Of a DNA stretch of 64,000 nt, positions 24,498 to 26,855 are shown one piece after another. The DNA lies in NCBI GenBank assembly GCA_016872835.1, contig VGYX01000002.1, positions 62,001 to 126,000 of the forward strand. The letters run 5' to 3'. Positions within the stretch are counted from its first letter, which is position 1. Every line of letters begins with the position of its first letter. Source of the stretch: Planctomycetota bacterium (GTDB taxonomy: Bacteria > Planctomycetota > Phycisphaerae > Phycisphaerales > SM1A02). Position numbers and translations under genes: made by a program. The notes under the pieces were generated by a model that did no database searches, was not told where the DNA came from, and saw nothing but the letters and a program-made list of their open reading frames with translations.

Positions 24498-24503
24498 ATC
24501 ATA
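24498..24503 (-). promoter_or_regulatory. Possible internal -10 hexamer TATGAT overlapping the ubiE stop
   Basis: TATGAT on the minus strand ends twelve bases before the ATG at 24485 and contains the TGA stop of ubiE. It could give the downstream two genes their own promoter inside the operon. Confidence 0.4.
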
Positions 24504-25296
24504 CGGAACCGCGCACGGCCGTCGTGATGGCGCAGGTGCCGAAGGTCAGGTGGGAAGTTCGCACCTCCATGAAGCCGGCTGCGGAGGCCGCTGCGGCGAC
24601 GCCCTTGGGGCTGAGGAAGGTGTCCACGCTCCGGGGCAGGTAGCGATAGGCGCCGCTTCGATCGCGCGCAATCAGCGTTGCGGTGAGAGGCATGATCTGT
24701 TCCGTGTAAAGGCGGTGGGCCCAACGCGCGGGTGCCCAGGACGGCAGGCCGAACTCAAGCACCGCCAAGACGCCGCCTGGCCGAAGCACGCGGTGAAACT
24801 CGCGCATCGCGGCACCGGTGTCGCCCACGTTGCGCAGTCCGAACGCGATGGTGAGCGCGTCGCAGGAGGCGCCAGCCTGTTCCAGTCGCGTCGCGTCGCC
24901 ATGCAGATAGGTCGGGGCATTCTGGAGTCGGCGGTCCGAGGCCTTCGCGCGAGCGATGTCCAGCATCGCCGGGGTGAAGTCGACGCCCGTGACCGACGCG
25001 CCACGCGCCGCGAAGGCCTCGCTCAGGTCGCCTGTTCCGCACGCGACGTCGAGCACGCGAACGCCAGCCAAATCGACGCGGCCCATGCGCTGCATCACCT
25101 CGCGCACCGTGCGGCGCCGCCACGCCTGGTCCAGTCCGAAGGAGTGCAGGCGATTGTTCAGGTCGTAACTGCGCGCGATCGCCGAGAACATCTCCCGCAC
25201 GCGTCGGGCCTTCTCCGGATCCTGATGCGGATTCGCGGCAAGCCGCTCGTCGCTCCACGCAGTTTCGGTGGTCTTGGGCGCGGCAGGCTCGGCCAT
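24499..25296 (-). CDS. ubiE: Ubiquinone/menaquinone C-methyltransferase UbiE/MenG
   Basis: The 265-residue SAM-dependent methyltransferase methylates the ring of demethylmenaquinone (or the ubiquinone precursor) in quinone synthesis. Family signatures are 'FSAIARSYDLNNRLHSFGLDQAWRR' (in parts), the SAM motif 'VLDVACGTGDLSEAF', 'GVDFTPAMLDIAR', 'AFGLRNVGDTGAAMREFHRVL' (in parts) and 'YRYLPRSVDTF'. Whether this organism uses menaquinone or ubiquinone cannot be decided from the window; no other quinone genes are present. The product would supply complex I, whose membrane arm is encoded nearby. The ATG follows a TACCAT hexamer by six bases. Confidence 0.95.
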   Translation of the reverse strand: MAEPAAPKTTETAWSDERLAANPHQDPEKARRVREMFSAIARSYDLNNRLHSFGLDQAWRRRTVREVMQRMGRVDLAGVRVLDVACGTGDLSEAFAARGASVTGVDFTPAMLDIARAKASDRRLQNAPTYLHGDATRLEQAGASCDALTIAFGLRNVGDTGAAMREFHRVLRPGGVLAVLEFGLPSWAPARWAHRLYTEQIMPLTATLIARDRSGAYRYLPRSVDTFLSPKGVAAAASAAGFMEVRTSHLTFGTCAITTAVRGSV

Positions 25297-25308: not shown

Positions 25309-25346
25309 GGGCGCTCAGGTGTCGCATAACACCGAAGTTTCCTTCC

Positions 25347-25352
25347 GATAAC
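25347..25352 (+). promoter_or_regulatory. Possible -10 GATAAC for the B12-fold protein gene
   Basis: GATAAC matches four of six positions of TATAAT and would start transcription at about 25358-25360, which is where the 5' strand of the closing helix of the leader RNA begins. I see no convincing -35 box. Confidence 0.35.
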
Positions 25353-25357
25353 AGAAA

Positions 25358-25476
25358 GTGTCTGCCCGTTGGCAGGGTCACCTCGGAAGCGCCGAAACAA
25401 AGCGCGCCGCGAGGAACGCGGCCCAGCAACCCAAGGCCGCCTGCGATGGAGTCGCACGGGTGCCTGAACGAGACAC
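25358..25476 (+). ncRNA. Candidate structured 5' leader (possible riboswitch) of the B12-fold protein gene
   Basis: This leader can fold into an ordered multibranch structure. A closing helix pairs GTGTCT (25358-25363) with AGACAC (25471-25476). Inside it are a CTGCC/GGCAG hairpin (25362-25375) and CCTCG/CGAGG (25381-25385 with 25410-25414), which encloses GCGC/GCGC. Next come a perfect GCGGCC/GGCCGC hairpin (25418-25423 with 25435-25440) and a TGCGA/TCGCA hairpin (25442-25456). The loop of the fourth helix carries GCAACCC, and its ACCC can pair with GGGT at 25458-25461 as a pseudoknot. The closing strand abuts GGAAC just before the ATG at 25488, so folding could control translation. GCAACC and GGTGCC recall SAM-riboswitch cores, but the arrangement does not match a class I know. 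Hairpins are common in GC-rich DNA, so this needs covariation support. Confidence 0.45.
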
Positions 25477-25487
25477 GGAACACCGCC

Positions 25488-26198
25488 ATGAACGCCACCC
25501 GCTTCGAAACGACCGTCGAAACCATGCTCCCCTCGCTTCTGTCGGGCGACCGCGCCGCCGTGCGCACGCTCGTGGCTCGCGCCCTTGGCTCGGGCATCTC
25601 CGCCGAGGACTTCACCGAGCAGGTCGCCTGGCCGATCCACGAGGCGCTTCACAAGCTGAACCGACACGACCAGATCGAGCGCATCAGCTTCAACTACGCC
25701 ACGCGACTGCTTCGTCAGGTGGTGGATCAGATGCAGCTCGCCTACGTGCGCAGCGAGCGCAACGGCAAGCGCGTCGCGCTGTTCTGCGGCAGCGGCGAGA
25801 ACGAGGATCTTGGAGGACAGATGGCCGCCGATCTGCTCGAGGCCGCCGGCTTCGCCGTGCAGTTCGCGGGTGGCGGCGTCGCCGGCGACGAGATCCTGGA
25901 GGAGACGAGCCGTCGCAAGCCCGACTTCCTCGTGCTGTTCGCCAGCAGCGCCAGCGACGCGCCGGGCATTCGTGCCGTGGTGGACCAGATCCGCGAGATC
26001 CGCGCCACGCCGGACATGGAGATCGCGGTCGGTGGGGGCGTCTTCAACCGGGCCGATGGGCTTGCCGAGAGCATCGGCGTCTCCCGCAGCGCGCGCACGC
26101 CGATGGACCTGGTTCGCACGCTGCAGGCTCCGGCGCACGCCACGGCGCAGGCCAAGCCGGCCACCGAACGCCCTGCGCGCATGCGCGCGGTGGCCTGA
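25488..26198 (+). CDS. Cobalamin-binding-fold protein with altered His motif
   Basis: The 236-residue protein has a helical cap like the B12-binding-2 domain (residues about 10-85: 'LLSGDRAAVRTLVARAL', 'WPIHEALHKLNRHDQIE'). A Rossmann-like B12-binding domain follows (about 95-215: 'KRVALFCGSGENEDLGGQM', 'FAVQFAGGGVAGDEILEE', 'EIAVGGGVFNRADG'). In corrinoid proteins the lower ligand comes from DxHxxG. Here the aligned positions read NEDLGG, so the His is Asp and the first Asp is Asn. It may bind cobalamin base-on, another ligand, or none. I chose the ATG at 25488. An in-frame ATG at 25446 lies inside the folded leader and gives residues outside the domain. The ECF sigma gene follows 63 bases downstream. 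Confidence 0.75.
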   Translation: MNATRFETTVETMLPSLLSGDRAAVRTLVARALGSGISAEDFTEQVAWPIHEALHKLNRHDQIERISFNYATRLLRQVVDQMQLAYVRSERNGKRVALFCGSGENEDLGGQMAADLLEAAGFAVQFAGGGVAGDEILEETSRRKPDFLVLFASSASDAPGIRAVVDQIREIRATPDMEIAVGGGVFNRADGLAESIGVSRSARTPMDLVRTLQAPAHATAQAKPATERPARMRAVA

Positions 26199-26261: not shown

Positions 26262-26855
26262 ATGGCCCTGCCGAGTCGCGAGGTGGAGCAACGGCTGCTG
26301 CGCCGCGCACGACGCGGGGACGCGGCCGCCATGGAATCGCTGGTCGGGATCTTCCAGGGGCCACTGCAGGCCTTCCTGCAAAGGCTGTGCGGAAGCCCCG
26401 AGTTGGCCGAGGACCTGGCCCAGGAAACCTTCGTGCGCGTGCTGGGGAACCTCCATCGCTTCGACGATCGGTTCCGCTTCAGCACATGGCTGTACACGAT
26501 CGCCCGCCGGCTCTGGATGAACCACCTCAACAAGCATCGCCCGGTGCCCGACAGCGAGCATGTCGAGAGCCGCGGGGGACGTGACGAGTTGCCCGGGGTG
26601 CTGGCGGCACGTCAGGAGCAACGCACGCGACTTCGCAGGCTTCTGGATCGCGCGTTTGACGTGCTGTCCGGTCCACAGCGCGAGATGGTGCTTCTCTTCC
26701 ATCAGCAGGGCTGGGGTGTCGGCGAGATCGCCCGACAGTCGAACCTGCCCGAAGGGACCGTGAAGAGCCATCTGTTCCGCGCACGGCGCCGCATGCTGGA
26801 GCTGATCCGCCGTGACGCCGTGGACAGTGCGTTGGCCGAGGAGGTGCTGCGATGA
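26262..26855 (+). CDS. ECF-type RNA polymerase sigma factor
   Basis: The 197-residue protein is an extracytoplasmic-function sigma factor. Region 2 includes 'AEDLAQETFVRVLGNLHRFDDRFRFSTWLYTIARRLWMNHL' (in parts), which binds core enzyme and melts the -10. Region 4 has 'LSGPQREMVLLFHQQGWGVGEIARQSNLPEGTVKSHLFRARR' (in parts), with the helix-turn-helix that reads the -35. A linker of about 30 residues rich in Arg and Gly separates them. Its operon partners overlap (ATGA) and include a small membrane protein that may be its anti-sigma factor. The target promoters are unknown. Confidence 0.93.
   Translation: MALPSREVEQRLLRRARRGDAAAMESLVGIFQGPLQAFLQRLCGSPELAEDLAQETFVRVLGNLHRFDDRFRFSTWLYTIARRLWMNHLNKHRPVPDSEHVESRGGRDELPGVLAARQEQRTRLRRLLDRAFDVLSGPQREMVLLFHQQGWGVGEIARQSNLPEGTVKSHLFRARRRMLELIRRDAVDSALAEEVLR

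Follow-up and report, generated by a model that had tools for sequence, protein, structure and literature searches.

We lean towards reading the leader of a B12-fold protein gene, at positions 25358-25487 of the window (the whole stretch of 64,000 nucleotides of planctomycete DNA that was analyzed), as a translational control region of the CsrA (RsmA) type. Judged from its sequence, a landing site for CsrA, a widespread bacterial regulator, appears more likely than a new metabolite-sensing riboswitch. Indeed, GGA recurs in hairpin loops of the related leaders with a strand-specific excess, fliW and csrA are adjacent in the genome, and the loops are nearly absent from nine relatives without the canonical genes. 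Two GGA hairpins, a GGA at the ribosome-binding site and an adjacent fliW-csrA pair would together make up the anatomy of a CsrA-repressed leader, described in PMC7652899 as GGA in hairpin loops and at the Shine-Dalgarno site, with FliW as CsrA antagonist in Bacillus subtilis. In the proposed mechanism, a promoter at about 25367-25399 would drive the gene under the control of a regulator binding TTCCGATA (25343-25350), and the 5' UTR (about 25403-25487) would expose two GGA in hairpin loops and one more at the ribosome-binding site. Translation would be blocked by a CsrA dimer spanning a hairpin site and the ribosome-binding GGA, and FliW, by binding CsrA, would release the mRNA; the transcription start, the binding of CsrA, the direction of repression and the link to FliW are all what we infer here. 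A wider and more tentative proposal would extend FliW-CsrA control of the B12-fold protein, mostly histidine-less, to Phycisphaerales and their kin as a whole, the stems turning over, the GGA loops being kept and the operator being helically phased.

As the first-pass annotation stated, the leader directly precedes the ATG at 25488 of the B12-fold gene (25488-26198, plus strand). The encoded protein of 236 amino acids matches PF02310 with an E-value of 9.4e-11 (42 bits against a cut-off of 32.1), and an alignment of 30 sequences was made. Matches to the gene are present in 146 of 151 relatives, and 149 leaders, seven of which belong to extra gene copies, were collected from 142 of these 146 genomes, G003, G042, G045 and G055 (weak or partial matches) being those left aside. 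The best 80 of 312 named relatives are mostly Phycisphaerales, Phycisphaerae or Planctomycetota. Among solved structures, phmmer retrieved the photocobilins 8j2w, 8j2x and 8j2y and the corrinoid proteins 3ezx and 1y80 (E 1.6e-4 to 1.1e-3); the B12 Rossmann domain is common to all of them and to the window protein, and the likeness to 8j2w/8j2x extends to the N-terminal part (query 11-231). The predicted structure of the protein alone reached a mean pLDDT of 53, too poor for a fold search. Photocobilins, identified as such from PMC10979010, are described there with a conserved His axial ligand, whereas the DxHxxG motif reads ENEDLG in the window protein and the cobalt-binding histidine is missing in 29 of the 30 aligned sequences, the window's included and L021 excepted. 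His-on cobalamin binding of the usual type by the window protein is therefore doubtful, and a cobalamin link of the leader is weakened for the same reason. In L021 (genome G106, from another family of the order), the motif is ERHDLG and the histidine is kept; some such lineages may still be able to bind cobalamin. An ECF-type sigma factor gene lies downstream of the B12-fold gene (26262-26855), and tblastn found ECF-type sigma-like genes at 19 of the 80 named relatives' loci, mostly just downstream of the B12-fold gene.

The riboswitch put forward in the first-pass annotation, a metabolite sensor with closing helix and pseudoknot, is highly improbable. Its case starts from the window sequence, in which the helices can be drawn and ACCC is complementary to GGGT. 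GTGTCT (25358-25363, plus strand) can pair with AGACAC (25471-25476, plus strand), which adjoins the ribosome-binding GGA, but among the 14 genus leaders this closing helix is complete in the window only: the 13 others hold 1-4 of 6 pairs in the same columns, and 41.0% of cells are paired over 13 distinct rows, four of the six pairs showing some change on both sides. Similarly, the GGGT strand of the pseudoknot, looked for by eye, is not found at the corresponding alignment positions in the 13 genus relatives, so that neither element is kept in close relatives whose gene is intact, an outcome that the first-pass annotation had named as refuting its reading. Other strands close to these places look complementary by eye in a few of the relatives, where some long-range pairing may be possible. 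The internal helices do appear as hairpins in the minimum-energy fold, yet in stability the leader does not surpass shuffled sequences (-50.2 against a mean of -49.1; z -0.26), 70 of 200 of which equal or exceed it, and the same comparison for the probable 5' UTR (25403-25487) gave z -0.47, with 66 of 200 shuffles at least as stable. The three helices scored on the genus alignment, taken jointly, do exceed column shuffles, with 67.3% of cells paired against 62.2% (0/500). At gathering scores, Rfam recognized two tRNAs only in the whole 64-kb window, leaving the leader unmatched, and no family matched around the leader up to E=10. The strings GCAACC and GGTGCC do occur in the leader, as in SAM-I, SAM-IV and TPP riboswitches, and at the aligned places of the 13 genus relatives GGTGCC is found in 0/13, GCAACC in 3/13 and GCAAC in 11/13. 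A transcript starting after GATAAC, a start allowed by the two-box search described below, would contain the closing helix and thereby favor the riboswitch; the protein without a cobalt-binding histidine speaks against it. With closing helix and pseudoknot not conserved and Rfam without a match, this reading was set aside, which would remove one candidate for a new riboswitch class. Of the earlier proposal, the regulatory nature of the leader and its conserved RNA hairpin are supported, whereas an aptamer closed by GTGTCT/AGACAC is not.

A helix pairing TGG with CCGA, predicted by RNAalifold from the genus alignment, was likewise rejected and read as a pair of promoter boxes, because both strings are invariant and stand at a fixed spacing, a constant 19 nt in the 14 genus leaders, with unconserved sequence between them. 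When only one sequence is read, promoter boxes at fixed spacing could thus pass for a paired helix. The boxes in question are a possible -35-like box CGTTGGCA (25367-25374, plus strand), in which TGG is invariant (14/14) and which weakly matches the family form TTSTCCAG, and a possible -10-like box CCGAAACA (25392-25399, plus strand), in which CCGA is invariant (14/14) and whose family form is TCGATGA/CCGATRA. Since the boxes keep their spacing and nothing is conserved between them, the first half of 25358-25487 appears to behave like promoter DNA. From the position of the -10-like box, the transcription start would fall at 25403-25406 (plus strand); the RNA thus probably starts near 25403, past the 5' strand of the closing helix, which would lie upstream of the transcript. 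Expectation-maximisation over 43 genera of the family returned TTSTCCAG-N17-(T/C)CGATRA, with a posterior of 0.81 for the gap of 17, and the two-box search scored 106 against -55 to -69 in four mononucleotide-shuffled sets (30 restarts for the real set, 12 for the shuffled ones).

In the window itself, the best two-box site is TGTCGCAT-N17-CCGATAAC, i.e., the box holding GATAAC, which lies where the first-pass annotation located it as a probable -10. This is evidence against the promoter CGTTGGCA-N17-CCGAAACA (P2), itself a weak match to the family consensus, and TTCCGATA could alternatively serve this gene as its -10. A promoter composed of GTCGCATAAC...TTCCGATA (P1) is accordingly possible, and it was chosen by the two-box search on the window sequence; against it, and in favor of an operator, stand the phasing of the corresponding box in other genera and a likely divergent promoter of menG. 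Indeed, the menG/ubiE gene (24499-25296) diverges from the B12-fold gene, and GTCGCATAAC (25321-25330, minus strand) reads GTTATGCGAC on the minus strand, by eye the likely -10 of menG/ubiE, so that the likely promoter of that gene adjoins the TTCCGATA box. The GTTATGCGAC box is kept in the genus and, by eye, has a weaker form in other genera with a divergent menG.

The operator-like box TTCCGATA (25343-25350, plus strand) lies 48 nt upstream of the second promoter box (box 2) in the window and its genus, and TCCGATA is invariant in 14/14 genus leaders. Within the family, 23 of the 43 genera have the pattern TCCGRTA, compared with 1.0 in shuffles. Distances were counted with the wider pattern TCCG[AG][TG]A: 19 genera combine a TCCGRTA-like box with a good box 2, and the former precedes the latter by 58-61 nt in 14 of them and by 39, 49, 50, 69 or 71 nt in the remaining five, the 39-nt distance being that of a genus mate (L007), which also has a CCGATGG box at 48 (by eye). 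Further genera with a good box 2 have no TCCGRTA-like box upstream, and in three genera of other families TCCGRTA coincides with box 2 itself. Among new leaders, the operator-like box stands at 59 nt in six whose box 2 is good, scoring over 5; where box 2 is weaker, it stands at 59, 60, 60 and 61 nt, with 43, 49 and 99 nt as further distances. These distances suggest that the TTCCGATA-type box would be an operator whose distance from the promoter changes by steps of about 10 bp, one helical turn. Inverted TAYCGGA boxes are enriched in the other families of this order, where 12 of 41 genera have them and shuffles give 1.5.

FliA (sigma-28), whose -10 consensus is GCCGATAA, was considered as the sigma factor of the promoter, since the -10 resembles this sequence and a FliA-type factor is present; the candidate was dropped because such factors match in 118 of 118 nearly complete relatives and thus discriminate nothing. 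A promoter regulon was also rejected, as the strict pattern gave 14 matches in 13 of 91 genomes, six of the matches being the same leaders by position.

Downstream of the promoter boxes, the 5' UTR contains GGA in two hairpin loops, which would both lie within the transcript. Hairpin 1, GCCGCG(AGGAA)CGCGGC (25406-25422, plus strand), offers candidate CsrA site 1 (GGA at 25413-25415). It keeps 5-6 of its 6 pairs and the loop GGA in 14/14 genus leaders, with 96.2% of cells paired. Of the 13 distinct rows, 12 close the loop with a G-C, A-U or G-U pair and one has a mismatch there, and covariation support is modest because four of the six pairs never vary. Hairpin 2, TGCGAT(GGA)GTCGCA (25442-25456, plus strand), offers candidate CsrA site 2 (GGA at 25448-25450) and is restricted to part of the genus: it has a GGA loop in the window, L003-L006 and L077, whereas L007-L015 have at this place a 3-bp hairpin with a loop ATGAG or AAGAG and without GGA; 63.5% of the cells of hairpin 2 are paired as aligned. 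Candidate CsrA site 3 is the GGA (25477-25479, plus strand) of ACACGGAAC, the probable ribosome-binding site, 8 nt before the ATG. A good Shine-Dalgarno sequence usually includes GGA, and this third site is therefore weak evidence for CsrA. Over the 64 kb, both strands included, two GGA hairpins with stems of at least 6 pairs stand within 12-60 nt of each other at 8 places.

A leader regulated by CsrA is of a known kind, and it is the unusual target that would be new here. According to PMC7652899, the CsrA-repressed leaders of the Escherichia coli glgC type combine in their 5' UTR an upstream hairpin-loop GGA with a GGA at the ribosome-binding site, two sites that in the glgC model are bridged by a CsrA dimer, and this arrangement is common to the leader studied here. 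On the contrary, the present stems are longer and GC-rich, the flanks of the GGA do not clearly follow ANGGAN, the target is a B12-fold protein and the host is an uncultured planctomycete. The length of the stems argues against CsrA, as ligands selected by SELEX mostly have four or fewer contiguous pairs (PMC7652899).

GGA loops were then counted across the collected leaders with a stem of at least 5 pairs and a loop of 3-8; shuffle means were drawn from 20 replicates and trinucleotide tables from 10. In the leaders of genomes scored as having csrA, GGA ranks first of the 64 loop trinucleotides, and 83 of 131 leaders have a GGA loop against 36.4 (sd 5.6) in shuffles and 31 on the antisense strand, which leaves 48 of 131 without such a loop under this criterion. 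With one leader per genus, the count is 49 of 79 against 23.0 (sd 4.2) shuffled and 17 antisense, the csrA-less set being for this count one of ten genomes, G058 included. Similarly, 33 further leaders, new to the first set, taken from 80 named loci and selected irrespective of csrA status, yielded 22 GGA loops against 8.05 (sd 2.2) shuffled and 7 antisense; GGA ranks there third of 64, behind TGG and GTG. As a control, recA leaders have GGA loops in 11 of 30, against 13 or 9 antisense and 5.95 or 5.75 shuffled (sd 2.3-2.5), the paired values corresponding to the nearest and the farthest start choice; in genomes with canonical csrA only, the count is 7 of 25, against 11 or 7 antisense and about 5 shuffled. 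Leaders of recA thus exceed shuffles yet without strand preference and, since they do so on both strands alike, shuffles are a lenient baseline and the antisense strand a fairer one. By this fairer measure, the B12-fold leaders carry about three times as many GGA loops on the sense as on the antisense strand. Their stem sequences vary from genus to genus while the loop GGA stays, as selection on the loop rather than on the stem sequence would predict. In some genera, the extra gene copies (L166-L169) have near-palindromic GGA hairpins, e.g., GTCGGA(GGA)TCCGAC.

These counts bear on the possibility that the conserved signal resides in DNA only, promoter and operator being maintained and the hairpins being incidental in a GC-rich leader. 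Boxes at fixed spacing, a phased operator-like box, an overall fold no better than shuffled and the excess of GGA loops over shuffles in recA leaders would all agree with it. Nevertheless, we consider it quite improbable, as the GGA-loop excess is strand-specific, the loops lie downstream of the promoter boxes in many genera, and hairpin 1 is kept throughout the genus with paired changes at one position.

A GGA binder other than CsrA, either another RNA-binding protein or the ribosome itself (an SD-like GGAG serving as standby or decoy), is a better placed alternative, albeit still an unlikely one. The flanks of the loop GGA do not clearly follow the ANGGAN ideal: over 73 sites, the A typical of CsrA upstream is weak (27% one base before, 30% two before), and G follows in 45%, in a manner that recalls a Shine-Dalgarno sequence. 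On the other side, the loop trinucleotides GAT and AGG are enriched as well as GAG, the recA leaders are devoid of a strand-specific excess, and genomes that lack fliW-csrA rarely have the loops. CsrA remains our preferred reading of the loops, with a probability only a little above even.

The genome encodes FliW (C5:52891-53244) and an adjacent CsrA (C5:53302; MLVLSR, VHRKEI), and flhA and a FliA-type sigma factor are present in the same genome. Among the 151 relatives, csrA is found at any score in 148, fliW in 130 and flhA in 129. A GGA loop, and a weak one, is present in one of the nine relatives without canonical csrA, fliW and flhA, compared with 78 of 125 first copies (Fisher p 0.0035), and by genus within the family in 1 of 5 against 27 of 38 (p 0.043), p-values that are descriptive as the strict set of nine (G016, G020, G032, G056, G057, G062, G068, G083 and G087) was chosen after the GGA-loop results had been seen. 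Three other genomes were left out of this set: G061 (65% complete), whose assembly is without all three genes but which has GGA loops, because its genus mate G019 has csrA, fliW and flhA; G042, without all three and with a weak B12-fold match; and G060 (55% complete), with no B12-fold match. A broader csrA-less class, which includes incomplete genomes and genomes whose congeners carry csrA, comprises 18 leaders, 9 with a GGA loop. The nine strict genomes are few and related, and all carry a second, divergent CsrA-like protein; on the menG tree they need 3 changes (2-4 in bootstraps), and the well-supported branches allow one. The GGA-loop result is mixed in genera with csrA but no FlhA.

The adjacent fliW and csrA genes, here accompanied by flhA and a FliA-type sigma factor, are common to this genome and to the FliW-CsrA-hag system of Bacillus subtilis (PMC7652899, PMC6529632). 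The putative target differs, since it is not flagellin, and a search of the whole genome with Flagellin_N (PF00669) gave no match despite the presence of FlhA, the FliA-type sigma factor, FliW and CsrA. Among the papers retrieved by searches of PubMed Central, a collection without most subscription papers, none describes in its title or abstract opening a CsrA target in planctomycetes or a CsrA-controlled B12-fold leader. If our reading is true, the leader would provide a testable candidate for a CsrA target in planctomycetes and would connect the FliW-CsrA switch with a B12-fold protein that is conserved but of unknown function; under the wider proposal, the target would be one outside flagellin and conserved over an order.

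Six relatives (G043, G074, G049, G077, G051 and G079) have kept FliW and canonical CsrA and have no FlhA match, as if the pair served a non-flagellar use in them. Similarly, the FliA/WhiG-type sigma factor (G000:C4:125424 in the genome of the window) scores over the cut-off in the nine relatives without FlhA, FliW and canonical CsrA, which suggests a role of this factor outside motility.
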